A stretch of 45,863 nucleotides of DNA from Alphaproteobacteria bacterium (GTDB lineage: Bacteria > Pseudomonadota > Alphaproteobacteria > DSM-16000 > Inquilinaceae). The notes below the pieces were generated by a model. It was not told the DNA's origin. It worked only from the letters and a program-made list of their open reading frames with translations, and searched no databases. The position numbers and the translations under genes were made by a program. The stretch is from positions 1-45,863 of the forward strand of contig JANQIU010000225.1 in assembly GCA_028281985.1 (NCBI GenBank), given 5' to 3'. This document shows positions 4,115-27,068 of the stretch, in pieces; within the stretch, counting starts at the first letter, position 1, and each line of letters starts with the position of its first letter.

Positions 4115-4166
4115 GGGCCAACGATGCCCACGGCAAGCGCGGTCGTCTTGAACGGGGTTGCAGACC

Positions 4167-4970
4167 TCAGGATACGCAGCGGTCTCGCACGAGCCTTCCG
4201 GGCGTGACACCGAGAACGCGCTTCATGCGGCGGGTCAGATGGGCCTGATCGCTGAAACCTGCTGCCGTTGCCGCTTGAGCGATCGGCTCGCCAGCGAGGA
4301 TCATCCGCTTGGCTTCCGCGACCCGCAGGTGCAGCGCATAAGCCATCGGCGTCACGCCGAGCACGCGGTGGACCGAGCGCAGGACCCGGTAGCGATCGGT
4401 CCCGGCGTCCCGTGCCAGCCCCGTCAGGGTGATGTCCAGCCCGCGCGCATCGCGGATAGCTTCGATCGCACGGGCTGCTATGCGGTCTTCTGGCGGCGGC
4501 GGCCGCGCCGGACGCACGCCCGCGACGGCAAAGAGGTGCACCAGCGTCTGCAGCGCCACCTCGTCGGCGCTGGCACCCTCGCCTTCGGCCAGAACAACGA
4601 ACAGGCACGACATCGACCCGGTGACGCCCGGGGCGGCAACACACCCAGTGTCGGTGGCGGCACGCCTGCCGACACCGGTCTCCACCAGCACGGTATCGAT
4701 CATCTCCACCGGCGCGAAGAGGTTGGCGTATGACCAAGCCTGCCCTGACAGCCCGCCGTCGTGCGCCTCTCCCGGGTCCGCCACGCAGACCGTTCCGGCG
4801 GGCGCTTCGACCGTCGTCTGGCGGTAGGAGAACACGTTCGCGCCCGACCGGACAAGCCCGATCGAGAACACGTCGTGCACGTGTCGGTCGAACCTCTCCG
4901 CCCCAAAAGCGGCGCGAACAACCTCGCAGCGGTGGCCGAGCAGCGTCAGCGGCGCGAGTGCATTAGGCAT
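4167..4970 (-). CDS. AraC family transcriptional regulator
   Basis: 267-residue activator. An N-terminal cupin-like AraC-binding domain (residues about 10-150, with HVHDVFSIGLV and ADPGEAHDG) is followed by a two-helix-turn-helix DNA-binding domain at the C-terminus, containing AQAATAAGFSDQAHLTRRMKRVLGVTPG, the hallmark second HTH of the family (given in part). The start at 4970 (MPNALAP) was chosen over the open frame to 5081 because the extension is rich in arginine and proline and resembles noncoding GC-rich sequence. The downstream EamA transporter is its likely target. The effector is unknown. Confidence 0.88.
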   Translation of the reverse strand: MPNALAPLTLLGHRCEVVRAAFGAERFDRHVHDVFSIGLVRSGANVFSYRQTTVEAPAGTVCVADPGEAHDGGLSGQAWSYANLFAPVEMIDTVLVETGVGRRAATDTGCVAAPGVTGSMSCLFVVLAEGEGASADEVALQTLVHLFAVAGVRPARPPPPEDRIAARAIEAIRDARGLDITLTGLARDAGTDRYRVLRSVHRVLGVTPMAYALHLRVAEAKRMILAGEPIAQAATAAGFSDQAHLTRRMKRVLGVTPGRLVRDRCVS

Positions 4971-5255
4971 GGTCAAGCCTAGTAAGGGACGCCGTTGAAA
5001 GCCAGGTGCTGCTGGCGGCGAAAGACGGGGTCGAAGAGCGCATATCGCATCTCCAATGGTCGGCGCGTTTCTCCGCACCATCGCCCGTCACCTTCGCCCA
5101 CGGCATCCCATCGCAGGCCACCGCCGAGACGTCCATCCGATCGCCGGCCGGCTTGTCGACGAACGGACGGTTGCCAGATCCTTGGACGAAGCGCCGCTCA
5201 TGCCGAAAGACCGGCCGAAACCCTCGACAGACAGAACGCTTCAAGGAGAGATGCC
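4971..5255. other. divergent intergenic region, nothing further recognised
   Basis: 285 bases separate the divergent AraC gene and the DJ-1/PfpI gene. Open frames across it are GC-driven and show no family resemblance. Apart from the ribosome-binding site AAGGAGAG at 5243-5250 for the rightward gene I see no clear promoter or palindrome. Confidence 0.4.
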
Positions 5256-6089
5256 ATGATCGACAGACGCACCTTCACCCTTCTGATGGCGGCCGGCTCG
5301 CTGGGCGTTTTGCCGCGCACCGCCGGCGCCCAGCAAGCGCTGCCGGAAGGGTCGGTGCGGGCAGATCTCGACGTTCCGATCCACGACATGTCCGGCTGGC
5401 CGGCCGACTGGACCGGCGATGAGCAGGTGGTGATGCTGGCCTATCCGGGTATGACGGCGATCGACCTGGTCGCGCCGCAATACATGTTCGGCAGCCTGTG
5501 GGGCGCCACGGTCAAGGTGGCGGCCAAGACGCTTGATCCGGTGGTTTCCGACACGCGCTTGACCATCTTGCCCGACATCACCTTCGATCAGGCCCATGAG
5601 GTGCCCGACATTCTGTTCGTGCCGGGCGGCATCAGCGGCACGCTGAACGCAATGGAAGACCGCGACACCGTCGACTTCATCGCCTCGCGCGGAGAAACCG
5701 CCCGCTACGTCACCTCGGTCTGCACCGGTGCCCTGATCCTTGGCCAGGCTGGGCTTCTCGATGGCTATCGGGCGACCACCCATTGGCTCGCGATGTCGTC
5801 GCTCGACGCGTTCGGTGCGGAACCGGTGAATGCACGCGTGGTGCGCGACCGTAACCGCTTCACCGGCGGCGGCGTGACGGCCGGCCTCGATTTCGGCCTG
5901 ACGATGCTCGAAGAACTGCGCGGCCGGGAATACGCCCAGTCTATCCAGCTGTTCGCCGAATATGCGCCCGAACCGCCGCTGCAGGCTGGAACCCTCGAAA
6001 CCGCGCCCGAACGCGTGCGGCAAATCGCAGTGGAAATGTTCCCCGGCTTCGAGACCCATGCCCGTGCCATCGCCGCAACGCGCCGATGA
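5256..6089 (+). CDS. exported DJ-1/PfpI family protein (isonitrile hydratase-like)
   Basis: 277-residue member of the DJ-1/ThiJ/PfpI class-I glutamine amidotransferase-like fold. The nucleophile elbow is TSVCTGALILG, with Cys156 followed by the TG pattern of isonitrile hydratase (InhA)-type proteins. The N-terminus DRRTFTLLMAAGSLG and a hydrophobic stretch ending AGAQ suggest Tat export, which is unusual for this mostly cytosolic fold. The start is fixed by AAGGAGAG six bases upstream; the longer open frame from 4995 is not credible. It overlaps the next gene by four bases, so the two are an operon. Function could be isonitrile hydration, glyoxalase III-like or chaperone activity; the sequence does not decide. 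Confidence 0.82.
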   Translation: MIDRRTFTLLMAAGSLGVLPRTAGAQQALPEGSVRADLDVPIHDMSGWPADWTGDEQVVMLAYPGMTAIDLVAPQYMFGSLWGATVKVAAKTLDPVVSDTRLTILPDITFDQAHEVPDILFVPGGISGTLNAMEDRDTVDFIASRGETARYVTSVCTGALILGQAGLLDGYRATTHWLAMSSLDAFGAEPVNARVVRDRNRFTGGGVTAGLDFGLTMLEELRGREYAQSIQLFAEYAPEPPLQAGTLETAPERVRQIAVEMFPGFETHARAIAATRR

Positions 6090-6919
6090 TGGAGACCGCT
6101 CACCATTGCGCGGCACTGAAGCTGCCGGACGGCACCACCTGGGGCTATGGCCGCGCGGGCCGTTCAGGCGGGCGGCCCGTACTCGTCCATCACGGACTGA
6201 TCGGCGATGCCGGGTTCAGCCCGATCTGGGACGAGCTTGGCGGGGTTGCCGGAATCGAATGGATCATGCTGGAACGACCGGGCTATGGCGAAACACCGCC
6301 CATGGCTATGAATGCGCTGGCCGAGTGGCCGACCATGATCGCACCGGTGTTGACGGCGCTCGGCGTCACGGGCCAGTTCGATGCCGTGGGTATGTCGGCC
6401 GGCGCCTGCTACGCCTATGCCTGCGCGGCGGGCATGCCGGAGCGTGTCGGGCGCGTCGCAATCCTGTCGGGCGTGCCGTTCCTCCACGCGCCGGGCGTCC
6501 TCGATGCGTATCCGCCCGATGGACGGGCGGCCTATGCCCGCTATGTCGGGGCGAGCGAGGCGGATCTGTGCGCCGAGTTTCGCGCCTTCTGCGAGAACGC
6601 GGTCGCACAACTCAGCGAAAGCGGAGAAATCCAGGGCGATCGGATGGCCCACTCGCTAAGGGCAGTCCTGAACCATGATGCTGCCGGACCGGCGCGGGAG
6701 GCGCGGCTACAAGCCATGGACTGGGGTTTTGGCCCGTCCGATGTGAACTGCCTGGTCCACCTTTGGCATTTCGAAGGTGATGCGATGGTTCCCTTCGAGG
6801 CAGCCCGGCGCGTTGCCGATGGGTTACCCCATGTCGCCCGGCACTTCATAAAAGGTGCCGGGCACATGGCGACGGACGCGGTACTCAAAGACATGGCTGT
6901 GGTTCTGGCGCCGGCATGA
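6086..6919 (+). CDS. alpha/beta-fold hydrolase
   Basis: 277-residue hydrolase of the Abhydrolase_1/6 type. The oxyanion-hole segment is VHHGLIGD. The nucleophile elbow is GMSAGA, with Ser104. The catalytic histidine is His260 in GAGHMATD, and an acidic residue before it (GDAMVPFEAAR) completes the triad. No signal peptide is evident, so it is cytosolic. It starts within the stop codon of the DJ-1/PfpI gene (ATGA overlap), implying translational coupling. The substrate, probably a small ester, cannot be predicted. Confidence 0.82.
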   Translation: MMETAHHCAALKLPDGTTWGYGRAGRSGGRPVLVHHGLIGDAGFSPIWDELGGVAGIEWIMLERPGYGETPPMAMNALAEWPTMIAPVLTALGVTGQFDAVGMSAGACYAYACAAGMPERVGRVAILSGVPFLHAPGVLDAYPPDGRAAYARYVGASEADLCAEFRAFCENAVAQLSESGEIQGDRMAHSLRAVLNHDAAGPAREARLQAMDWGFGPSDVNCLVHLWHFEGDAMVPFEAARRVADGLPHVARHFIKGAGHMATDAVLKDMAVVLAPA

Positions 6920-6972
6920 TGAAACGGGGTGATGGCGCGGCATGACGGACAAAGCGACGTCAGTTCTCTACG

Positions 6973-8349
6973 TCAATGAGCCTTCAGTTTCGTCATTGTC
7001 GTGAAGCGCCACACGAGAACTAATGACGCCAGCACCAGCCCGGCTCCGTACCCCAACCAGACACCATTGGGTCCAAGGCCGAATGGAACAGCCAGGCCAT
7101 AGGCAAAGGGAAGCGCAAGCAGCCAGTAGCAGATGAGCGTCGCCACGACAGGCCACGTGTTATCAAGCATCCCCCGTAAAGCACCGAGGGCAGTTGCTTG
7201 AACACCGTCTGCGATCTGCATGGCCGCAAAGATCACAAACATGGTCGCCGCAAGGGCGATGACGCCGGGCTCATCCGATAAGGCATTGGCGATGTCATCC
7301 CCCAGAACGAGCAGCATGATCATGACGGCGGTCATCCAGACGATCACCGTCGCCAGCGCGGCCCAGCCGATCGGGCGCAACCTGAGGCGTGCGTCTTCCC
7401 CGATCGCCTGACCGACGCGAATTGCCACCGCGGCCGACATTCCGAGCGGCACCATGTACAGGACCGAACTGACCGAACCGACAATCTGGTTGGCCGCCAG
7501 GGCCGATGCTCCGAAGAGCCCGAGCATCAGGCCAGCAACCGAGAACGCCCCCCCTTCTCCCGCATAGCCAAGCGCAAGCGGGGAGCCTTCGCGGAACTGC
7601 ACGATGATGTCTTTGGGTTTGACCGGCGCGCCTGTCCGGTACGCGGTCATCGTCGCGGCCATACGCCAATAAGCAATGGCAACGACAAGGGAAACGGTTT
7701 GGGCAAGCAGGCTGGCAAGACCGGCGCCCAGCAGACCGAGGCCCGCCCATGTCCCGATCCCATGGATCAAAACCCAGTTGGCTGGAATGTTGACGAAGAC
7801 AGCGATGAACGAGAACGCGACGCCAAGCCATGCCTGGTCGGTTGCGTCATACAAACCCTTCAACGCGTAGAACACTGCGTAAGGCACGAGCACAAAGCTC
7901 ATGGCGATCCAATACGGCCGGATGATCCCAACGACCTCTTGCGGCTGGCCGATGATGGGGAGAAGCGGCAGCACAGCAATCATCAGAACTGCCGCCACGA
8001 TCCCGCCAACCAGCGAAACGACCAAACTCGCTTTCACGGTGACACTGACCGCCTCACCGTCCTTTGCCCCGAACGCCTGCGCGATCAGCACACCGCAAAC
8101 CGACACGAGGCCGTAAAGCGCGGAATAGAAGATCAGGATGACCGACGCGGCGATGGATGCGCCTGCAAGAGCTGGGGTCCCCAAGGGCGCGATCATCACG
8201 GTGTCGACGACACCGATCAGGACAGCTGCCGCAAGCGCGACCACGATTGGCGTCGCCAGCGTGATGAGCCGCCAGACTTCGCTCAGGAAGTCTGGGCGCT
8301 GCTTGGATGCTGGGTTCTCTAGAGGTGTCGAAGCGGTCCGTTCGCGCAT
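6973..8349 (-). CDS. MATE family efflux transporter (NorM-type)
   Basis: 458-residue inner-membrane antiporter with twelve hydrophobic segments, the length usual for MATE proteins that expel cationic drugs by Na+ or H+ exchange. The N-terminal segment LATPIVVALAAAVLIGVVDTVMIAPLG (in part) carries the typical VDTVMI core, and the second half begins near EGGAFSVAGLMLGLFG, the internal MatE repeat signature. It stands alone, convergent with the hydrolase gene. It is one of two MATE genes in the window; the other is at 41785-43182. Confidence 0.9.
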   Translation of the reverse strand: MRERTASTPLENPASKQRPDFLSEVWRLITLATPIVVALAAAVLIGVVDTVMIAPLGTPALAGASIAASVILIFYSALYGLVSVCGVLIAQAFGAKDGEAVSVTVKASLVVSLVGGIVAAVLMIAVLPLLPIIGQPQEVVGIIRPYWIAMSFVLVPYAVFYALKGLYDATDQAWLGVAFSFIAVFVNIPANWVLIHGIGTWAGLGLLGAGLASLLAQTVSLVVAIAYWRMAATMTAYRTGAPVKPKDIIVQFREGSPLALGYAGEGGAFSVAGLMLGLFGASALAANQIVGSVSSVLYMVPLGMSAAVAIRVGQAIGEDARLRLRPIGWAALATVIVWMTAVMIMLLVLGDDIANALSDEPGVIALAATMFVIFAAMQIADGVQATALGALRGMLDNTWPVVATLICYWLLALPFAYGLAVPFGLGPNGVWLGYGAGLVLASLVLVWRFTTMTKLKAH

Positions 8350-10487: not shown

Positions 10488-11672
10488 ATGAAACGGACCC
10501 TCGCTGTTGCCACCGCCCTTCTGACCGCCGGGCCGGCAATCGCCCATGATGAGGAGCACCGCTACCGCCTGGTCGTCGCCGATGCCGAGGCGCCGCGGGT
10601 CGTTGTTCACGATGTCGGTGCGGGGGCGGACCCCATGGTCTTCGAGACGGCCTCGCCGGCGCGCCTTCATCTCGGGCCCGACGACCGCCACGCCTGGGCC
10701 GTGCAGCGGGACGCCGGCCAGGTGCAGCTGATCGATACCGGTTTGGTGGAAGAGGATCACGGTGACCATTCCGCCCTGATCCTGGCCGAGCCGACCCTCC
10801 TGCCTGGAACGGCAACCGGTGAACGCCCCGTTCATTTCAACATGGGCGACGGCCGCGTCGCCGTGTTCTGGGATGGCACGGGAATGGCGACTGTGCATGA
10901 GGCCGACGCCGCGGCCGAGGGTGACCTGACCGCGATCCAGACTATCGAAACCGGCGGGCCCCATCACGGCGTGGCCGTGCCGGTGCGCGACATGGTCATC
11001 AGCTCGCTTGCGCCTGACGGCGAGGGTCTGCCGGACGCGCTGGCTGTGTTAGGTTCGGACGGGGCCGCGCTGTCGCGCGTCGACTGCCTGAACCTTCACG
11101 GGGAAGGCAAGGCCGGCGGCTACATCGCCTTCGGCTGCGAAGACGGCGTGGCGATCTTCGACACGTCCGCAGGCACTCCGGAAGGCCGCTTCCTGGCCTA
11201 TCCCGACGACGCCCCGGAGGGCGGGATGGTCCGGACGCTGCTCAGCCCCCGGGATACGCTGGGTCTGGTCGGCAGTTTCGGGTCCGATGGTCTGGTCATC
11301 TTCGATCCCTCGTCGGAAACCGGAGACTTCGCCTTCGCCGAGTTGCCGGCGCCGCGGATGGCTTTCGCCCTGGACGAGTCCGGCACCATCGGCTTCGCCA
11401 TGCTTGCCGACGGGCGGCTGGTGCGGTTTTCGGCACTGACGGGCCGGATGCTCGACGAGGCGGCCGGTGTCACCGAAGCCTACTCGATGGAACGCGGCGT
11501 GGTCCGGCCAATGATGACCACGGCAGGCGACCGGGTTGCCGTGTCGGATCCCGCAGCAGGACACGTCGTGCTGCTCGACGCCGAAACGCTTGAGGTCGTC
11601 GACCGCCTTGATGTCGGCGGCCAGCCCCGGTCGCTGCTCCTGCTTGCCGCCGAGGCCGACCATGACCATTGA
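10488..11672 (+). CDS. aztD: periplasmic zinc metallochaperone AztD-like beta-propeller
   Basis: 394-residue secreted protein. It has a Sec signal peptide (1-19, ending AIA) and, immediately after it, the metal-binding run HDEEHRYR. A repetitive beta-strand protein of propeller type follows (segments such as DDRHAWAVQRDAGQVQLID and DGRLVRFSALTG), and the end is His-rich (ADHDH). This matches AztD, which in Paracoccus passes periplasmic zinc to the AztC binding protein. Here no aztABC genes lie alongside. It is 12 bases after the COG0523 gene and overlaps the DUF1826 gene by 11 bases. The AztD assignment is by recognition, not alignment. Confidence 0.75.
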   Translation: MKRTLAVATALLTAGPAIAHDEEHRYRLVVADAEAPRVVVHDVGAGADPMVFETASPARLHLGPDDRHAWAVQRDAGQVQLIDTGLVEEDHGDHSALILAEPTLLPGTATGERPVHFNMGDGRVAVFWDGTGMATVHEADAAAEGDLTAIQTIETGGPHHGVAVPVRDMVISSLAPDGEGLPDALAVLGSDGAALSRVDCLNLHGEGKAGGYIAFGCEDGVAIFDTSAGTPEGRFLAYPDDAPEGGMVRTLLSPRDTLGLVGSFGSDGLVIFDPSSETGDFAFAELPAPRMAFALDESGTIGFAMLADGRLVRFSALTGRMLDEAAGVTEAYSMERGVVRPMMTTAGDRVAVSDPAAGHVVLLDAETLEVVDRLDVGGQPRSLLLLAAEADHDH

Positions 11673-12342
11673 CGGCATCATGGCCGGCCCATCGAACGCG
11701 GCTAAACCGGTATCCGTCCCGCGCGTCCTGAAAGACGCCGGTTCCGGCATCGATATCGCCGACACGCCCGAAGGGTTGGCGGCGATCCATCGGGCCGGCT
11801 GTGCCGCCGCCATCTGGCGGCGGCAGCCGTTGTCCAGCTTTCAGGATTGGCTTGACCGTCTCGACGCGGCGAACCTGCCGCGGGCGCGGGTGATCCTGCA
11901 GCCGAAGGCGGTTCGCGACACGGTGACGGCCCTCTGTGAAACCGAGGGCATGCCGGAGGGCGCCGAACGCGCAAGGCTCGTCGACGATGTCGCGGCGCTG
12001 GCGGACATCTTCGCGGGCCTGATGGGTGCCCCGTTCCTGCAACTGCGGCTGGACGTCGTGAAGGGCAACGCCTGCCGGAAGTTTCATGTCGATGCCATAA
12101 CGGCACGCCTGATCTGCACCTATCGCGGAACCGGCACACAGTACGGGATTGCGACGGACGGCGTCGAACCGAGGCGGGTCTTCACTGTACCGACCGGGTC
12201 GCCGATCGTCCTGCGCGGCATGCTCTGGCCCGAGAGCCCGCGCGCGGGACTTGTGCATCGCTCGCCACCGATCGAAGGGACCGGCGAGACGCGCCTCGTG
12301 CTCGTCCTTGACCCCGTTTACGACCAACCGCACGGGGCGTGA
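11662..12342 (+). CDS. DUF1826 domain-containing protein
   Basis: 226-residue cytosolic protein that I recognise as DUF1826 from features such as FLQLRLDVVKGNACRKFH followed by D and the segment LICTYRGTGTQYG. The region near HVDAITARLICTYRGTGTQ has the His/Asp/Arg look of a metal- or oxoacid-binding cupin-like fold, but no activity is established. The start at 11662 overlaps the end of aztD by 11 bases; the open frame back to 11536 is antisense-like filler. Its place inside a Zur-controlled operon suggests a role in zinc limitation. DUF1826 members do occur beside COG0523 genes. Confidence 0.72.
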   Translation: MTIDGIMAGPSNAAKPVSVPRVLKDAGSGIDIADTPEGLAAIHRAGCAAAIWRRQPLSSFQDWLDRLDAANLPRARVILQPKAVRDTVTALCETEGMPEGAERARLVDDVAALADIFAGLMGAPFLQLRLDVVKGNACRKFHVDAITARLICTYRGTGTQYGIATDGVEPRRVFTVPTGSPIVLRGMLWPESPRAGLVHRSPPIEGTGETRLVLVLDPVYDQPHGA

Positions 12343-12376
12343 CCGGCGCGGTTCTTCGCATTTGTCCCGGCACCGG

Positions 12377-13192
12377 ATGACAACTCAGATGATCCGACCC
12401 TTTGTCGCCGTCCTGGTGGCAGCCCTCGCAACGGTACCTGGCTTCGCCGCAGCACAAGAGGATGCGCTCGCCCGAGCACAGACCGAGGGCGTGCTGCGGG
12501 TCGCCAACACGCAAGGCCATCCGCCTTGGGACTTCATCGATGAGACCGGCGAGCTTGATGGTCTGGGCGTCGATCTGGCGCGAGAGGTGGCACGGCGCAT
12601 GGGCGTGGCTGGCGTGGACTTCGTCTCAGCGCGTTTCGCCGATCTGATACCTGGACTCCAGGCCGGTCGCTTCGACCTTGTCATCGCGGGCCACACCATC
12701 ACGCCTGAACGCGAGGAGGTCGTCGACTTCACCGATCCATACATGGTTGTCGGCACCAGCGTTTTCACCGCTGGCACGGGCACGACGATCGCCTCGCTCG
12801 ACGATCTGCCTGGCACAACGATTGGCGTACTCGCCGGTTCTATCCAAGAGGGATGGCTCGCCGAGAACTATCCCGATCAGATCACGGTGCGGACCTATCA
12901 GAACCCAACACTCGCGCTTGGTGATCTCGCCGTAGGGCGGGTCGATGGCGTGATCTATTCGAACGACGCCGGAAGCTACATCGCCGCGCAGCGGGACCTC
13001 GATGTTGTGGCTGCGGTTCCGGTCGACAGCGAAGTGAATGCGATGGTCGTCGCGGAGGGGCAGGACAGCTTGCGCGAGGCGGTGAACGCGGCGCTAGCAG
13101 AGATGATCGCGGACGGGACCTACGCCCGCCTATCCACCGAATGGCTTGGCGGGCTCGACATGGCGGCGGAGCTCATCGCGCTCGACCAGTAA
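12377..13192 (+). CDS. amino-acid-type ABC transporter substrate-binding protein
   Basis: 271 residues of the SBP_bac_3 (PF00497) family. A Sec signal peptide (to about residue 25, GFAAAQ) is followed by the family opening LRVANTQGHPPWDFIDETGELDGLGVDLA (in part), the RFDLVIAGHTITPEREEVVDFTDPY core and a DGVIYSNDAG segment. Such periplasmic proteins bind polar amino acids, opines or related molecules. It starts 35 bases after DUF1826 on the same strand and 12 bases before a cognate permease, so it probably belongs to the zinc operon transcript. ATG at 12389 is an alternative start. The ligand is unknown; a metal-ligand complex is an attractive but unproven option. Confidence 0.82.
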   Translation: MTTQMIRPFVAVLVAALATVPGFAAAQEDALARAQTEGVLRVANTQGHPPWDFIDETGELDGLGVDLAREVARRMGVAGVDFVSARFADLIPGLQAGRFDLVIAGHTITPEREEVVDFTDPYMVVGTSVFTAGTGTTIASLDDLPGTTIGVLAGSIQEGWLAENYPDQITVRTYQNPTLALGDLAVGRVDGVIYSNDAGSYIAAQRDLDVVAAVPVDSEVNAMVVAEGQDSLREAVNAALAEMIADGTYARLSTEWLGGLDMAAELIALDQ

Positions 13193-19435: not shown

Positions 19436-20086
19436 CTACGATGCCAGGTCGCTGGCCCAGGCATCCGACAGGGCGGCGGTTTCAGCTCTGGCGCGTTCGA
19501 TGGCGGCCGCTTTTTCTTCCGGTCCCGAGAATTGAAGCGGCTGTGCATGGATGACATCCGCGTCGGCGAGGCCGACAAATCCGAAGACGGCCTTCAGATG
19601 CGGCGTCAGACAATCCATGCCTTCAAACGCGCCGCCGGGCCGGTAGCTGCCGCCGGTGGCGAGAAGCATGACCGCCCTCTTGCCGGCAAGGTGGCCGACC
19701 ACGCCTGACGGCCCGACATCGAAGGTGCGGCCGCTGCGGACAATGTTGTCGACGAAGGCTTTGAACACCGCCGGCATGCCGAAATTGTGCATCGGAATGC
19801 CGAACACCAGCAGATCAGCCTTCAAGACGCGATCGACCAGCGCGTCGGAGGCGGCGAGCGCCGTCTTCATCTGCGGCGTCCGCTCCGCTTCATTGAGGTA
19901 CATGGCAGCGGTCGCCATCGCATCGAGCGGTGTGGCCGGGGTTTCGGCAAGGTCCAGCCGGTCGACCTCAAGACCGATACCGCTGCGCTTCAGGCGCTCG
20001 ACGAACAGCGACGACAGCATCCTTGAGGTCGACCCTTCAAGACGGGCGCTGCAATCGAGGTGAAGCAGGCGTTTGGGGGCAGGCAA
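19436..20086 (-). CDS. azoR: FMN-dependent NADH-azoreductase
   Basis: 216-residue flavodoxin-fold enzyme that reduces quinones and azo dyes with NAD(P)H using bound FMN. The N-terminal phosphate loop is LHLDCSARLEGSTSRMLS, the flavin-contacting segment is FGIPMHNFGMPAVFKAFVDNIVRSGRTF (in part), and LLATGGSYRPGGAFEGMD is the conserved second flavin loop of AzoR. The start is TTG at 20086 behind AAAGGATG. It diverges from a YafY-type regulator; an inverted repeat at 20131-20145 lies between them. Likely role is quinone or electrophile detoxification. Confidence 0.88.
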   Translation of the reverse strand: MPAPKRLLHLDCSARLEGSTSRMLSSLFVERLKRSGIGLEVDRLDLAETPATPLDAMATAAMYLNEAERTPQMKTALAASDALVDRVLKADLLVFGIPMHNFGMPAVFKAFVDNIVRSGRTFDVGPSGVVGHLAGKRAVMLLATGGSYRPGGAFEGMDCLTPHLKAVFGFVGLADADVIHAQPLQFSGPEEKAAAIERARAETAALSDAWASDLAS

Positions 20087-20154: not shown

Positions 20155-20820
20155 GTGCGCACCATTCGCCTGTTTCAGGTTCTCGATTATCTCCGCGCCC
20201 GGTCCCAGCCCGTCTCCGCGGAGCGGATCGCGCGTCACCTCGGCGTTTCGGTCAGGACCCTCTACCGGGATATCGCGACGCTGCAGGGCATGGGAGCCCC
20301 GATCCGCGGCGCCGGCGGTCTCGGCTATCAGCTTGAGAGGGGTTACTTCCTGCCCCCGCTCCATTTCGACGCCGATGAGCTCGACGCCATCGTCCTGGGG
20401 CTTCGCCTCGCCGCCAAGCGGGGCGATCCGGACCTGGCTGTGGCCGCCGACCGGGTGCTGGGCAAGCTCGCCGCATCCGGCGAGGAGGTCGCCTCCGATC
20501 TCGACCGTCCCCTGCTGGCCGTCGGCTCCCGCCGGGACGCGGAAGGTGCAGATCGGATCGCCGAGCTCCGTCGGGCGGTGCGGGAGCGGCGGCTTATCAG
20601 GATGGCTTACAGAAACGAAGCGGAGGTGCTCACCGACCGGACTGTGCGTCCGCTCGGCCTTACGGCCTTCGAATCCGTCTGGCTGCTGACGGGTTGGTGC
20701 CTGGCCAGAGCCGACTTCCGGAACTTCCGTCCAGACCGGATGGAATCCTTGGTCGTCCTAACCGACCGCTTTGCCGTCGAGTCCGGCAAGGAGTTCCGGG
20801 ACTATCTGCGTCTTCTCTAG
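20155..20820 (+). CDS. YafY-type HTH/WYL-domain transcriptional regulator
   Basis: 221-residue regulator. The N-terminal HTH_11 domain (residues 1-60) reads RTIRLFQVLDYLRARSQPVSAERIARHLGVSVRTLYRDI (in part). The C-terminal WYL domain (about 140-221) has RLIRMAYRNEAEVLTDRTVRPLGL (in part) and LLTGWCLARADFRNFRPDRM. Related proteins repress neighbouring oxidoreductase genes and respond to small aromatic or electrophilic ligands. It begins with GTG at 20155 and diverges from azoR, its probable target. Confidence 0.88.
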   Translation: MRTIRLFQVLDYLRARSQPVSAERIARHLGVSVRTLYRDIATLQGMGAPIRGAGGLGYQLERGYFLPPLHFDADELDAIVLGLRLAAKRGDPDLAVAADRVLGKLAASGEEVASDLDRPLLAVGSRRDAEGADRIAELRRAVRERRLIRMAYRNEAEVLTDRTVRPLGLTAFESVWLLTGWCLARADFRNFRPDRMESLVVLTDRFAVESGKEFRDYLRLL

Positions 20821-22019: not shown

Positions 22020-23198
22020 TCAGTTGGGCAGCAGATAGGCCGCCTCGAGATCGACGCGTTGCGATCGGTCCGTCGGCACCTCGTTCATGATCTTGTCGAT
22101 GATGTTGTGGTTGATCGCTGTCCAGTAGGCCGACGCGGTCATGTCCAGATAATCCGCCTCGTCCGCCTCGATCCGCCGGTAGTCGGGGCTCATGAGAAAG
22201 TCCTCCAGATCGGCCATGTTGTGGAACTCCATGACGGTGATCCCGTCCCATTGGGCGCCGACCTCATGCCAGAACAGGTCGCCTTCCCCGTCGGGGCCGA
22301 TGTTGTGGAGCTGCGCATACCGGGCGACGAAACGGTGCGTGGCCGGCTGTGCCAGAACCAGATCGGCGTGATCGGTCAGCCAGTGCGCCTGCCAGTCGTC
22401 CCGGGTCACGCCTTCGGCGACTTGGTGGATCTTGATCAGACTGACCGCCTCGCGGGCTCCGCGGTTCGGGATCACGATGTACTCGGCCGTGACCAGATGC
22501 GGCACCGAGCGGAACATGACGTGCTCTTCGGGGACGATGTACTGCGGAAACTTGCCCTGTCCGAACGAGATCGACAGATCCTCCAGATTGTTGAAGGCCA
22601 TGTAGGCAAAGCCATCGTATTGCGGGCGCTGATACGGCGGAATGTTGCCGACGATCTCGCTGAACAGGTCGCCATCGGCGTTCAGCGGCGGCTGGTAGGG
22701 CGGCGCAAAGAACGATGTCGGCCCCGATGAGATCCGATGGACCTGATCGTAGCGGAGCATCAACGCCATGCTCGCATCGTCGGGACCGTCCCGGTGCGTG
22801 AACCGCATGCCATGGATCTTCCGCCAGTACTCATTCCAATACTCGCCGGCGATATAGGGGTTCTGCTCGAACGCCAGGTCTTCAGGTTGCGCCGTCTCAA
22901 GGTCGACCGGCAGACCGTCAAGTCCGACGAGATTGTCCGGATCGCGTGGGCGTTCGCTCTCCGGCGTCAGATCCGGCCGCATCAGAAATGCCGGCAGGAC
23001 GATCAAGGGGGGGCGTGTGTTGTCATACACCCCTGGCCGATCGGCGGTGTTCGGATCGCCGACGGCGTCCGTCGCATGGCTGTAACTGTCGCGATAAGGC
23101 GGGCGCTCCAGGATATCAGCCTGGGCAGCGGTGATCGTCGCACCGGTTGCAGCGGCCATGAACAGGCCGGCAACGGCACAGTGCATATGGCGATGCAT
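22020..23198 (-). CDS. exported protein with two EthD-type domains
   Basis: 392-residue protein with a signal peptide (to about residue 27, AAQA). Two dimeric alpha+beta-barrel (EthD, PF07110-like) units are visible: the first covers about residues 130-255 (ALMLRYDQVHRISSGP ... EEHVMFRSVPHLV), the second about 265-375 (SLIKIHQVAEGVTRDDWQAHWL, TDHADLVLAQPATHRF, AQWDGITVMEFHNMADLEDF). EthD proteins assist cytochrome P450 ether cleavage or act in polyketide-like chemistry, usually as single cytosolic domains, so an exported tandem is unusual. It diverges from the dsbA-type operon across repeated GGTCACC half-sites. AGGAA precedes the start. Confidence 0.75.
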   Translation of the reverse strand: MHRHMHCAVAGLFMAAATGATITAAQADILERPPYRDSYSHATDAVGDPNTADRPGVYDNTRPPLIVLPAFLMRPDLTPESERPRDPDNLVGLDGLPVDLETAQPEDLAFEQNPYIAGEYWNEYWRKIHGMRFTHRDGPDDASMALMLRYDQVHRISSGPTSFFAPPYQPPLNADGDLFSEIVGNIPPYQRPQYDGFAYMAFNNLEDLSISFGQGKFPQYIVPEEHVMFRSVPHLVTAEYIVIPNRGAREAVSLIKIHQVAEGVTRDDWQAHWLTDHADLVLAQPATHRFVARYAQLHNIGPDGEGDLFWHEVGAQWDGITVMEFHNMADLEDFLMSPDYRRIEADEADYLDMTASAYWTAINHNIIDKIMNEVPTDRSQRVDLEAAYLLPN

Positions 23199-23245
23199 GG
23201 TTGGGTTCCTCGTGTTCCGAAAGCTGCACCGGCATATGGCCGTCT

Positions 23246-23335
23246 AGGTCACCAAGCGTAAAGTAGGCACCGTTTGGTGACCTTGGCTTGGGAGCATCAC
23301 ACCTGGTGCCTGCCCCAGGGTCACCGAAAGGTGAC
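23246..23335. promoter_or_regulatory. cluster of GGTCACC operator half-sites
   Basis: AGGTCACCAA (23246-23255) and its exact complement TTGGTGACCT (23274-23283) form a 10-base-arm repeat over 18 bases. A second, tight palindrome GTCACC-GAAA-GGTGAC occupies 23320-23335. All four half-sites share GGTCACC or its complement. They sit between the divergent EthD gene and the dsbA-type operon, so one dimeric regulator probably controls both. The form resembles operators of HxlR regulators, and such a gene lies at 26697; that link is inference. Confidence 0.55.
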
Positions 23336-23411
23336 TACTATGCATTCAGGTACTGAAAAACTATCTATCGGATCGCCGGAAGGCGTGATCCCCGTCACCG
23401 AAGGCGATGCC

Positions 23412-24098
23412 ATGGAAGACGCAACCAGACTGACCCTCGACATCGTGTCGGACACGATCTGCCCCTGGTGCTATGTCGGGAAGCGCCGGCTGGAAGCCGC
23501 CCTGGCGGCCATCGGCGACGGCCTATCCTTCGACATCCGCTGGCGACCCTACGAGCTGAACCCGGACATGCCCCGCGAAGGCCTGGACCGGAAGCTATAT
23601 CGGACGCGAAAGTTCGGCAGTTGGGCAACATCGCGTGAACTCGATGCCCAGGTGGCGGCGGCGGGCGCCACGGAAGGGCTGGAATTCCATCACGACCGGA
23701 TCGAGAAGACACCGAACACCCTCCTGAGCCACGTCCTGGTTCGTCTCGCCGGCGACGCAGGCCTCCAGGGCGACCTGGTTGAGGCGCTCTTCAGTGCCTA
23801 CTTCGTCGAAGGCAGGGATGTCGGCGATCCGGCAGTCCTGGCGGCGATCGGGTCCGATACCGGACTGGACCGGGCGACGGTCGAAGCGGCGTTGGCAGAC
23901 GAGGCCCTGCACGCCGATGTCAGGGCGGAGGCGCGGAGCTTCGCCCAGTCCGGGATCCGCGGCGTCCCGACGGTGCTTCTCAACCGTGTTGTGATCGTCT
24001 CCGGCGCACAGCGGCCCGCGCTGATCGAACACGCCTTGCGCAAGGCCGCGGCCGACGAAAGCGTCATCGCGGCGGGAAGGCTGTTGGCGGATGCCTGA
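23412..24098 (+). CDS. DsbA family oxidoreductase (FrnE-type)
   Basis: 228-residue thioredoxin-fold protein of the DsbA/FrnE group. The active site is DTICPWCYVGKRRLEAAL, with CPWC, and the closing cis-Pro loop is SGIRGVPTVLLN. There is no signal peptide, in keeping with cytosolic FrnE proteins linked to polyketide and oxidative-stress genes. The start at 23412 gives the standard N-terminus (LTLDIVSDTICPWC). Upstream ATG 23340 or GTG 23274 in frame would fall in the operator cluster. The stop overlaps the next gene's start, so it is translationally coupled to the FAD monooxygenase. Confidence 0.86.
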   Translation: MEDATRLTLDIVSDTICPWCYVGKRRLEAALAAIGDGLSFDIRWRPYELNPDMPREGLDRKLYRTRKFGSWATSRELDAQVAAAGATEGLEFHHDRIEKTPNTLLSHVLVRLAGDAGLQGDLVEALFSAYFVEGRDVGDPAVLAAIGSDTGLDRATVEAALADEALHADVRAEARSFAQSGIRGVPTVLLNRVVIVSGAQRPALIEHALRKAAADESVIAAGRLLADA

Positions 24099-25236
24099 CC
24101 CGCTTCCCCAGCGCCTCGACATCGCGGTTGCCGGCGGATCGATCGCCGGGCTTTGCGCAGGCACGGCCCTGCTGTCGGCCGGCCTTGATGTGCACGTCTT
24201 CGAACGATCCGCGGAAAGGCTGTCGAGCCGCGGCGCAGGCATCGTGGTCCAGCCGGAACTGTTGGACCTGCTCAACGCGGTGGGCGCGCCCCCGCTGGCG
24301 ACAACACGCTGCGGCAGCCGACGCATGTTCGATGCGCCGACGGGCGGGGTCGAGACGACGCGCATGCCGCAGCGCTTCACCTCCTGGGAGGCGATCTATG
24401 CGGCCCTGCGGTCGGCATTCCCGGACGATCGATATCATCTTGGCTGCGAACTGGCGCTTGCGTCCCGGTCGGGTGACGGTGTCGAGCTTGTCATCGGCAG
24501 CGACCGGGTTGATGCCGACCTCCTGGTCGCTGCCGATGGGATCGGATCGGGTTTCCGCAGCGGCCTGGCCCCGGGCACGGTCACGCGCTACGCCGGCTAC
24601 ATCGCCTGGCGCGGCGTGGTGGACGAGTCCCAGCTCCACCCGGATCTGGTCGACGACTTCGACGACACGTTCAGCTTCTGCCGTCCGGTGGGGGGCGGGC
24701 ACGCGCTTTGCTACTTGATTCCGGGCGACGGGCCCGCCGTCGCCCCCGGCCGCCGGCGCCTGAACTGGGTCTGGTACATCCCCGTCGGAGACGACGCGAC
24801 GCGGGACGCGCTCCTGACCGACAGATCCGGGAAACGAAGACAGGTCTCGGTACCGCAGGGCGAGATCGGTGATGTTGCCCGCCGGTTCCTGCTGGCGCGG
24901 ACCGACCTGCTGGCCGCGCCGTTCGCCACGCTGGTTCGTGCAACGCCCGATCCGTTCATCCAGTCGATCGTCGACGTGGCGCCGTGCGGCATGGTCTTCG
25001 GCCGGGTGTGCCTTGTCGGCGACGCGGCCTTCGTCGTGCGTCCCCACACCGCTGCCTCGGCGGCCAAAGCGGCCGCCGATGCGATGGCGCTCGCCCAGAC
25101 GCTGCGCGGCGGCAACGGCGACTTCGATAGTCGCCTGTTGGAATGGGAACGCCAGCAGGTCGCGGTTGGACGGCGTTTGGTCGACTACGGCGTGATGCTT
25201 GGCGAGCGCACGCACCGGCAGCCTACCCATTCTTGA
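24091..25236 (+). CDS. FAD-dependent monooxygenase (2,6-dihydroxypyridine 3-monooxygenase-like)
   Basis: 381-residue flavoprotein hydroxylase. The dinucleotide-binding motif is IAVAGGSIAGLCAGTALL, the mid-protein DG motif is LLVAADGIGSGFR, and the second FAD motif is GRVCLVGDAAFVVRPHTAASAAKAAADA (in part). The VVRPHTAASAAKA form is typical of the dihydroxypyridine-hydroxylase (DhpH) branch. It would hydroxylate an aromatic ring using NAD(P)H and O2. It overlaps the dsbA-type gene by eight bases and is followed 31 bases later by a reductase-like flavoprotein. The real substrate is unknown. Confidence 0.85.
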   Translation: MPDPLPQRLDIAVAGGSIAGLCAGTALLSAGLDVHVFERSAERLSSRGAGIVVQPELLDLLNAVGAPPLATTRCGSRRMFDAPTGGVETTRMPQRFTSWEAIYAALRSAFPDDRYHLGCELALASRSGDGVELVIGSDRVDADLLVAADGIGSGFRSGLAPGTVTRYAGYIAWRGVVDESQLHPDLVDDFDDTFSFCRPVGGGHALCYLIPGDGPAVAPGRRRLNWVWYIPVGDDATRDALLTDRSGKRRQVSVPQGEIGDVARRFLLARTDLLAAPFATLVRATPDPFIQSIVDVAPCGMVFGRVCLVGDAAFVVRPHTAASAAKAAADAMALAQTLRGGNGDFDSRLLEWERQQVAVGRRLVDYGVMLGERTHRQPTHS

Positions 25237-25267
25237 GGTGACCGTCAGGAGAAGGTGACGAACGACG

Positions 25268-26551
25268 ATGGCGACGGATCGCGTGTCCAACGAGAACAGC
25301 GGCGACGAAATCAAGGTCTACGGTCGAGCTGGATCCACCGAAGGCTACGATATCCGGGATTTCCTGGCGCGCACCGTCGTCGCGTTCAACTGGGTGGATT
25401 TGACGTGCGAGGATGACTGCCGGTCTGTGCTGGGGCTTGGCGACTACGAAGCGTTGCGGTTTCCCATCGTCGAGTTTCCCGACGGCGAACGGCTCTTCGG
25501 CCCGCGCGTGCGCGAGATCGCCCACCGGCTCGGCTGGGTTACCACGCCACGCTACAAGGAGTATGACCTGTCGATCTATGGCGCGGGGCCGTCCGGATTG
25601 TCGGCGGCGGTCTACGCCGCCTCCGAAGGCCTGCGCACGGTGCTGATTGAGCGGCACGCCGTCGGCGGACAGGCGGGAACAAGCTCGCTGATCGAAAACT
25701 ACATGGGGTTTCCGCACGGCATCAGCGGTGCAGCCCTGGCAGAGCGGGCTCGGCAACAGGCCGTCAAGTTCGGCGCCGAACTCATCATGATGGGCGAAGG
25801 CATCAAGGCCGAGTTTCGGGATAACCGGATCGATGTGAGCATGGCCGACGGATCGCGCATGGTGGCGAAGGCCAACATCTGCGCCACCGGGGTCGAATAC
25901 CGCCGGCTGGGGGTCGAGAACGAGGATCGGTTCCTCGGTGCCGGCCTGTTCTACGGTGCCGGCGCCGCGGAGGCACCCTACTGCCTGCGCGAACACGTCT
26001 ATGTTGTCGGCGGCGGCAACTCCGCCGGCCAGGCAGCCATGCACCTCGCCGACCACGCCCGGAACGTGACCATGCTGGTGCGCGGCGCCTCGCTGGCGGA
26101 GTCCCTGTCGTCCTACCTGGTCGACCGCATCCAGCGGACGGCCAATGTCGACGTGCTCTACAACGCGGAGGTCAGCGGTCTCGACGGCGACGAAAACCTG
26201 GAGGCAATTCGCGTGCGATCACTGACCGCCGATACCGTGTCGACGGTGCCGGCGCGACGTTTGTTCGTGTGCATCGGCGGGGTGCCGAACACCGAATGGG
26301 CGAAGGATACCGACATTGTCCGCGATCGATCCGGTTATCTGGTGACCGGCCCGGATCTTCTCCACGAAGGTCGGCCGCCGGCCTGCTGGCGCCTCGAGCG
26401 TCAGCCCTACTATCTTGAGACCAGCGTGCCTGGTTCCTTCGCCGTCGGCGATGTCCGCCATGGGTCGATCAAGCGTGTGGCCTCGGCCGTCGGTGAAGGG
26501 GCGATGGCCGTCTCCTTCGTCCATCGATACCTGCAGGAAACGCACGGATAG
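25268..26551 (+). CDS. thioredoxin reductase-like FAD oxidoreductase with N-terminal glutaredoxin-like domain
   Basis: 427 residues. Residues about 14-92 look like a thioredoxin/glutaredoxin fold without a CxxC (VYGRAGSTEGYDIRDFLA, LRFPIVEFPDGE). The remainder is a TrxR-type flavoprotein, with FAD site DLSIYGAGPSGLSAAVYAAS, the QAG loop, GVEYRRLGVE and NADPH site VYVVGGGNSAGQAAMHLA, closing GSFAVGDVRHGSIKRVASAVGEG (in part). Where true TrxR has the redox CxxC the sequence is GLFYGAGAAEAPYC, so it cannot act as a standard thioredoxin reductase. It may pass electrons from NAD(P)H to another partner, such as the neighbouring monooxygenase. Confidence 0.83.
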   Translation: MATDRVSNENSGDEIKVYGRAGSTEGYDIRDFLARTVVAFNWVDLTCEDDCRSVLGLGDYEALRFPIVEFPDGERLFGPRVREIAHRLGWVTTPRYKEYDLSIYGAGPSGLSAAVYAASEGLRTVLIERHAVGGQAGTSSLIENYMGFPHGISGAALAERARQQAVKFGAELIMMGEGIKAEFRDNRIDVSMADGSRMVAKANICATGVEYRRLGVENEDRFLGAGLFYGAGAAEAPYCLREHVYVVGGGNSAGQAAMHLADHARNVTMLVRGASLAESLSSYLVDRIQRTANVDVLYNAEVSGLDGDENLEAIRVRSLTADTVSTVPARRLFVCIGGVPNTEWAKDTDIVRDRSGYLVTGPDLLHEGRPPACWRLERQPYYLETSVPGSFAVGDVRHGSIKRVASAVGEGAMAVSFVHRYLQETHG

Positions 26552-26633
26552 CCGGACGGCTTGTGCCGTCACCTGGGACGGCAACAGAGCTTCCGGCATT
26601 CGAACCAACGCACGATGCTCTACCTGTTTGAAT

Positions 26634-26685
26634 TAGATCAGCTTATCTGCGTTCAGATGATTCCATCCGAACGCAGGTTGATCTA
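26634..26685. promoter_or_regulatory. nested inverted repeats upstream of the HxlR gene
   Basis: Outer arms TAGATCA (26634-26640) and TGATCTA (26679-26685) enclose inner arms CTGCGTTC (26647-26654) and GAACGCAG (26669-26676). The structure ends 11 bases before the GTG start of the HxlR regulator. It could be a composite operator or an RNA stem around the translation start. Confidence 0.5.
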
Positions 26686-26696
26686 GGTTGCCATGC

Positions 26697-27068
26697 GTGA
26701 CCGAAAACGAACCACCGATCTATGATCCCCGCTACCCGGCGCGGCAACTTCTTGACCTGATCGCGGACAAGTGGACGCCGATCATCATGTATTGCCTGTC
26801 CGGCGGTACCCGTCGCTTCTCCGCACTTCAGCACCAGATCCCCGACATCTCAAAGAAGATGCTGATCCAGGTTCTGCGAAGGCTTGAAGCCGATGGGCTG
26901 GTCGATCGCAAGGTCTACGCCGTCGTTCCGCCCAAGACCGAGTACAGCCTGACCGGGCTCGGCAAACGCATGCATGAGCCGATCGCCATGTTGTGCGAAT
27001 GGGCGATCGACAACGAGAAAGACCTGAAGACCATCCACCGACGCCGAAGCGCTGCAGAGCCCCAGTAG
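26697..27068 (+). CDS. HxlR family transcriptional regulator
   Basis: 123-residue winged-helix protein of the HxlR type. The hallmark LLDLIADKWTPIIMYCLSGGTRRFSALQHQIPDISKKML (in part) is followed by the wing LEADGLVDRKVYAVVPPKTEYSLT (in part). HxlR proteins usually sense electrophiles, aldehydes or quinones and control neighbouring oxidoreductases. GTG 26697 is preferred over TTG 26688 in the same frame. It is downstream of the monooxygenase/reductase operon with its own regulatory region, and a plausible controller of the GGTCACC sites at 23246-23335. Confidence 0.87.
   Translation: MTENEPPIYDPRYPARQLLDLIADKWTPIIMYCLSGGTRRFSALQHQIPDISKKMLIQVLRRLEADGLVDRKVYAVVPPKTEYSLTGLGKRMHEPIAMLCEWAIDNEKDLKTIHRRRSAAEPQ

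Follow-up and report, generated by a model that had tools for sequence, protein, structure and literature searches.

A putative HxlR-controlled cassette of FrnE, monooxygenase and thioredoxin reductase-like genes with a directional 21-bp operator in an Inquilinaceae contig

Results and discussion

We analysed contig JANQIU010000225.1 of an alphaproteobacterium of the Inquilinaceae (assembly GCA_028281985.1), whose 45,863 nucleotides are referred to here as the window, and describe the genes between positions 22,020 and 27,068. These form two divergent transcripts, with an EthD gene leftward and, rightward, genes for a FrnE-type DsbA, a flavin adenine dinucleotide (FAD) monooxygenase (FMO), a thioredoxin reductase-like (TrxR-like) flavoprotein and an HxlR regulator; all five had been named in a preliminary description of this DNA and were found in place. 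On balance we read the locus, with moderate confidence, as an HxlR-controlled and horizontally spread cassette for the response to electrophiles or quinones, whose substrate we infer. The HxlR switch would probably turn on three redox enzymes, here together with a fourth gene, against reactive quinone-like chemicals. Two results of the comparison across genomes carry this reading, namely the conservation of the FrnE-FMO-TrxR-like cassette and a predicted link between HxlR and an operator.

Conservation of the cassette across genomes

Relatives of the locus were collected by a profile scan with the TrxR-like protein over the genome_contigs collection, which is described as comprising 84,980 species. 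It returned 260 relatives; the loci of the best 80, each with flanks of up to 10 kb, were used for counting, and the counts thus describe the nearest ones. Within 5 kb of the TrxR-like gene, FrnE was found in 28 of the 80 loci, FMO in 43 and both in 26, while an HxlR ortholog (counted at an identity of at least 50%) was present in 13, and FrnE, FMO and HxlR were found all together in 8. Neither FrnE nor FMO lies within 1.5 kb in any of 39 control loci, which are other TrxR-like loci, for the most part of relatives that bind cyclic nucleotides (L019-L029 and L057-L084, with L056 left out as a cassette-type relative); three of these 39 were scanned for domains, and all three carry a domain that binds cyclic nucleoside monophosphates (cNMP). 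The FrnE-FMO-TrxR-HxlR neighbourhood is thus conserved, contrary to the result that would have refuted the preliminary description, and EthD, which that description had placed in the same module, is adjacent in only one of the 80 loci.

The cassette occurs in Alphaproteobacteria, Cyanobacteria, Gemmatimonadota and Chloroflexota. Eilatimonas milleporae (DSM 25217), which like the cassette carrier Tistrella mobilis is culturable, shows the same gene order as the window, with identities of 66, 71, 84 and 78%, and a Gloeocapsa plasmid holds FrnE, TrxR-like and FMO genes side by side; overall, the order varies between FrnE-FMO-TrxR and FrnE-TrxR-FMO. Pairwise distances within each of the three enzymes agree with one another, at r values of 0.88-0.95 (28 cassettes, values inflated by shared species history), a level reached in 0 of 2000 permutations. 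Regulators in 42 stretches (41 loci and the window) comprise 14 of HxlR, 16 of LysR-like and 5 of AsnC-like type, the last two labels coming from reading of the sequences and not from a family search, and the same three-enzyme redox cassette is met beside different regulator genes in distant phyla. Around FMO relatives from the same family or class, FrnE and TrxR-like genes were absent from 6 of 6 stretches of about 20 kb, which taken alone looks like a refutation; plasmid searches and the 80-locus scan reverse this picture. The distribution looks sporadic, near relatives having yielded no example of the cassette. Among the titles and abstract beginnings of open-licence papers, a corpus that excludes most subscription journals, no description of the cassette was found, nor any paper combining HxlR, DsbA, a monooxygenase and a thioredoxin reductase.

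Other arrangements were seen in the same loci. In 37 of the 80 (L134, L138, L152 and others), the partner of a TrxR-like gene that lacks the cNMP domain is a bacterial zinc-finger gene of the UBP type; this pairing has no overlap with FrnE (Fisher 6e-11) and is a second, separate and widespread association. In the Burkholderia loci L138, L140, L141, L143, L144, L146 and L147, genes for FMO, VOC and UBP zinc-finger proteins form a set that runs divergently from the TrxR-like gene. Directly 3' of the cassette of L127 lies a gene (11320-12849) with a type VI secretion system (T6SS) Tle1-like phospholipase domain. The HxlR of the Chloroflexota locus L130 (11336-11707) is 77% identical to that of the window, compared with 62% for Tistrella, and the L130 enzymes are no closer; going by these identities, a separate transfer of the regulator is possible.

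The 21-bp site and its link to HxlR

The preliminary description had noticed four GGTCACC half-sites in the divergent promoter. All four were located (GGTCACC at 23247, GGTGACC at 23276, GGTCACC at 23319 and GGTGACT at 23330), but the heptamer itself is common, with 22 copies of GGTSACC in the window. The half-sites resolve into two putative 21-bp operators of the form GGTYACCNNNNGGTRMCTACT, and this compound site is the rare object: it is directional, with TACT on one side, and it occurs twice in the window, each copy oriented to one gene. The site was first recognised by eye in the promoter regions of 12 HxlR loci, where it lies either 5' of the operon or in the interval that separates HxlR from it. 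A matrix built from these 12 loci, with the window excluded, finds two strong sites in the 45.9-kb window (28.0 and 26.6 bits), the next scoring 11.2 bits and the best in 40 first-order Markov shuffles 14.1.

Both perfect matches to the pattern in the organism's own 4.31-Mb assembly (completeness 85.9%) are at the locus; with two mismatches allowed there were 18 matches versus 34 in the reversed control, so that no wider regulon is visible in this genome. Across 12 whole genomes behind the HxlR loci (that of L125 left out), the pattern gave 12 matches versus 1 for the reversed control; in 11 genomes the word matched is the cassette site and in that of L127 a site before a KefC-type gene, and the L124 genome has none. 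Among the 80 loci, the site is present in 12 of the 13 with an HxlR ortholog and in none of the 67 others, cyanobacterial cassettes included (Fisher 2e-13). A leave-one-out test recovers 11 of the 12 sites as the best ones, and in L127 the KefC site on the same contig scores higher. Because the site follows the HxlR ortholog in this way, we name HxlR as its predicted reader, and the half-sites in 23246-23335, put forward earlier as a binding region for HxlR, do form a predicted operator. Binding of HxlR to its own promoter only appears unlikely from these patterns.

Two further candidates were rejected as operators. The half-sites before the TrxR-like gene (25237) contain no 21-bp site, and a near-perfect 30-bp inverted repeat directly 5' of HxlR, with arms CTGCGTTC...GAACGCAG, is unrelated to it. 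With candidate binding sites named, a vague five-gene neighbourhood becomes a testable regulon, and the operator pattern NGTYACYNNNNRGTRNCTACT can be used to find more members in any genome.

Table 1. Features of the locus (positions in the window)
Feature	Position	Strand	Remarks
EthD protein, two related EthD-like halves, signal-like N-terminus	22020..23198	-	PF07110 43.6 bits (cut-off 22); own putative operator
Spare half-site GGTCACC outside both 21-bp sites	23247..23253	+	
Putative operator facing EthD, GGTCACCAAACGGTGCCTACT	23262..23282	-	26.6 bits; perfect match in own genome
Putative operator facing FrnE, GGTCACCGAAAGGTGACTACT	23319..23339	+	28.0 bits; perfect match; counterpart in 12 other loci
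FrnE-type DsbA, CPWC active site, no C-terminal cysteine pair	23412..24098	+	PF01323 127.9 bits for the longer open reading frame from 23340
FMO, PRK07236 / 2,6-dihydroxypyridine hydroxylase group	24091..25236	+	NF005566 406.8 bits (cut-off 333)
TrxR-like flavoprotein, N-terminal glutaredoxin-type domain without cysteine motif, TrxR fold without CxxC	25268..26551	+	
30-bp inverted repeat before HxlR	26647..26676	.	Unrelated to the 21-bp operator
HxlR regulator	26697..27068	+	Start GTG 26697 or TTG 26688; PF01638 98.4 bits (cut-off 20.8)

The FMO start overlaps the FrnE stop by 8 bases. The FrnE open reading frame (ORF) extends 5' so far that it abuts the operator; the start is most likely the ATG at 23412, since this aligns with the start in Eilatimonas. 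No break in G+C content was found at the cassette, and PADLOC, an anti-phage defence search, returned no match for the four proteins submitted. About 2 kb from the EthD gene, a flavodoxin-fold gene of azoreductase or quinone-reductase type (19436-20086, minus strand) is divergent from a WYL-domain regulator (20155-20820, plus strand), and no 21-bp operator precedes it.

Chemical theme of the cassette

Among solved structures, the DsbA of the window is closest to Deinococcus radiodurans FrnE (E 4.5e-31), and it keeps CPWC, in line with the CP(W/F)C motif of the FrnE subfamily (PMC8945050). Its translation has zero cysteines after CPWC and hence no C-terminal CxxxxC; since some FrnE members, among them that of S. 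roseofulvus, are given in the cited text without this pair (PMC8945050), its loss does not exclude membership. The FMO passes the NCBIfam model PRK07236 and is closest to 2,6-dihydroxypyridine hydroxylase (2vou, E 1.2e-56).

The locus had been proposed to encode an inducible aromatic or quinone pathway. The quinone half of this proposal, widened to electrophiles, is favoured by links to KefC and NemA; a catabolic or biosynthetic aromatic pathway does not emerge, as the Pfam scan of window ORFs recognised neither polyketide nor ring-cleavage genes among those it covered. In L127, a second 21-bp site lies before a KefC-type gene (440 bits to PRK03562, under the cut-off of 752) whose start is interrupted in the contig, and in L129 a KefC-like gene (383 bits, likewise under the cut-off) comes directly after HxlR as the last gene of the cassette operon. 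KefC is controlled by glutathione and shields Escherichia coli against electrophiles, N-ethylmaleimide among them; a pseudomonad from garlic owes part of its allicin resistance to each of frnE-like dsbA, oye and kefC (PMC7119367). Regulators of the DUF24/HxlR type in Bacillus subtilis sense quinones, HOCl and diamide (PMC6943732), and a frnE mutant of Deinococcus is sensitive to diamide and cadmium (PMC8945050). Taken together, the KefC, NemA, allicin, Bacillus HxlR and Deinococcus frnE links suggest electrophile or quinone stress as the best-supported theme. In L129, a tyrosine integrase gene follows the KefC-like gene (stretch 4133-7667).

Several points weigh against this reading. KefC is found in only 2 of the 26 cassette loci (0 of the 54 others) and NemA in 5 of 26 versus 4 of 54, and the quinone-reductase family seen in the window has no relative in the 80 loci. 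Cyanobacterial cassettes have neither an HxlR ortholog nor the 21-bp site, and the operator search was seeded from the same 12 loci that define the HxlR association. Cassette genes are missing from the stretches of 17-20 kb examined around EthD relatives, two of them in genomes and three on plasmids. Finally, C14 (PMC6943732) and C49 of HypR align with Tyr and Ile in the HxlR of the window (the HypR chain compared carries Ser at position 14), so that, judged from the alignment, the HypR-type redox switch is absent. Two other cysteines of the window protein, in YCLS and LCEWA, are kept in 13 of 14 orthologs, the single exception in each column being a substitution or a cut ORF, and the choice of these as the sensing residues is a guess.

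Among the alternatives, a true aromatic pathway fares best and is still unlikely: the FMO would hydroxylate a pyridine or phenol growth substrate, or a natural product, FrnE and EthD would finish the product, and HxlR would sense the substrate. The likeness of the FMO to 2vou fits such a pathway, as do Burkholderia loci in which the TrxR-like gene has a related FMO and a VOC protein next to it and a Paraburkholderia FrnE-FMO pair that sits with symporter, amidohydrolase and molybdopterin-oxidoreductase genes; however, transporter, ring-cleavage and polyketide synthase genes do not recur widely (symporter and molybdopterin protein in 3 of 42 stretches each), and the window flanks hold unrelated functions. 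More doubtful is a cassette for tolerance of reactive sulfur compounds of the thiosulfinate kind, functionally related to the Pseudomonas allicin-resistance islands, which include frnE-like dsbA, oye and kefC (PMC7119367), and to the Pantoea alt cluster, whose altA and altC encode an alkene reductase and an oxidoreductase of the DsbA family, respectively (PMC8417944). A NemA-type old yellow enzyme or KefC does join some cassettes, but the ahpD, trx, osmC and tetR genes of the islands are not prominent among the recurring neighbours, and the islands use TetR and not HxlR, with no FMO or TrxR-like gene in the gene lists cited. Among the window ORFs scanned, a subset of all its ORFs, none was an ahpD, trx or TetR gene accompanying dsbA.

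The TrxR-like flavoprotein

The designation of this protein as TrxR-like holds for its fold and not for its chemistry, as it has no CxxC. Its structure model (pLDDT 80.0) shows a beta-alpha-beta-alpha-beta-beta-alpha topology, that of glutaredoxin, at residues 14-87, and the two-domain TrxR fold at 95-427 (5mh4, Z 29.0, 2.5 Å over 300 residues). The VIA-align fold-search rows span residues 91-427 only, and the glutaredoxin assignment therefore comes from the topology and from weak sequence matches to GST (2.4e-5) and glutaredoxin (8.1e-4). No active-site cysteine is present at the CxxC position of this N-terminal domain in 10 aligned members. The redox motif of E. coli TrxR is CATC; at the corresponding place the window protein has GAGAAEAPYC, and its relatives follow YGAG...EAxxC, with YGAG (229-232) as well as Cys205 and Cys239 invariant in the 32 sequences aligned (alignment A3, from 38 initially given; L149, L151, L154, L156, L165 and L173 left out). 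The score against the TRX_reduct model, 210.8 bits, is under its cut-off of 343.45. With both CxxC motifs missing, the sequence cannot be filed as that of a thioredoxin reductase, and the protein may serve some other acceptor or use Cys205 and Cys239 in an unusual chemistry. The cassette gives a functional context to a large group of such CxxC-less flavoproteins.

The EthD protein

EthD proteins are a family of dimeric alpha-beta barrels. The gene product had been described as an exported double EthD protein, and its doubling is confirmed by an hhalign comparison of profiles of the N- and C-terminal halves (probability 92.6, E 4.7e-7). Pfam detects only the C-terminal copy; with the E limit relaxed to 5, 4 of 5 homologues of the N-half match EthD, and the N-half of the window itself has no match. 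Export is plausible from the hydrophobic N-terminus, but such a stretch is absent from the five homologues scored for hydropathy (of six, L035 being left out). The structure model was unusable (pLDDT 33.8, two sequences).

EthD was rejected as an anchor of the module, given zero occurrences among 142 relatives and no cassette gene around five EthD relatives. The 397 other genomes of the phylum hold two near full-length relatives and a partial one, and three more are on plasmids. In the cyanobacterial locus L122, the cassette is found together with EthD and an old yellow enzyme of the NemA type. We regard EthD as a predicted member of the regulon by its own operator and not by neighbourhood; that it is a chance neighbour, with only FrnE-FMO-TrxR-HxlR functional, agrees with its presence within 5 kb in 1 of the 80 loci and with the five other EthD loci, and is nonetheless the least probable of the alternatives, given that an operator faces it in the right orientation and that the 4.31 Mb contain just one other perfect site, and given the independent co-location in L122.

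Proposed mechanism

In the electrophile or quinone reading, a local and dedicated HxlR would control the divergent regulon, each of the two transcripts having its own directional 21-bp operator, with a dimer sitting on the GGTYACC-4-GGTRAC core beside the promoter and repressing it. A thiol-reactive signal, such as a quinone, an unsaturated carbonyl or a product of disulfide or chlorine stress, might then hit one or both of the conserved cysteines and free HxlR. The FMO would hydroxylate the aromatic ring of the compound, the TrxR-like flavoprotein would pass electrons from NAD(P)H to a non-disulfide acceptor, and cytosolic FrnE could repair or move thiol-bound adducts or mixed disulfides via CPWC. 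EthD may process the product, here perhaps outside the membrane, and in some genomes a KefC-type antiporter would join the regulon, as expected for stress by glutathione adducts.

Only tentatively do we go further and propose an undescribed, horizontally mobile stress module, in which an HxlR with a new cysteine arrangement reuses one directional 21-bp operator on both sides, a TrxR-shaped flavoprotein lacking the CxxC centres of both its TrxR and glutaredoxin domains passes electrons to a new acceptor as part of a detoxification relay with FMO and FrnE, and KefC and EthD are add-ons.

Comparison with known systems

The FMO is homologous to 2,6-dihydroxypyridine 3-hydroxylase (2vou) over nearly its full length and differs in genomic setting and regulator. 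The cyclic-nucleotide-binding TrxR-like oxidoreductases share the TrxR fold with the cassette protein, in an alignment that extends over the glutaredoxin-like N-terminal region; the cassette type is without the cNMP-binding domain and has other neighbours. The PfAR-1 allicin islands and the Pantoea alt cluster also combine a frnE-like DsbA with an old yellow enzyme, in PfAR-1 together with a Kef antiporter, and lie on islands or plasmids (PMC7119367; PMC8417944). They have TetR in place of HxlR and contain ahpD, trx, osmC and sdr, and FMO, TrxR-like and EthD genes do not appear in their gene lists as cited. Also similar are the MarR/DUF24 (HxlR) electrophile regulons of Bacillus (HypR, YodB, CatR), in which an HxlR-fold regulator likewise stands beside or controls flavin oxidoreductases, with thiol sensing proposed. 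Bacillus DUF24 regulators use a palindromic operator, a further likeness to the operator of the window. In contrast to them, the HxlR of the window lacks the HypR cysteines, its putative operator is directional and used on both sides, and its predicted regulon consists of FrnE, FMO, a CxxC-less TrxR-like flavoprotein and EthD.

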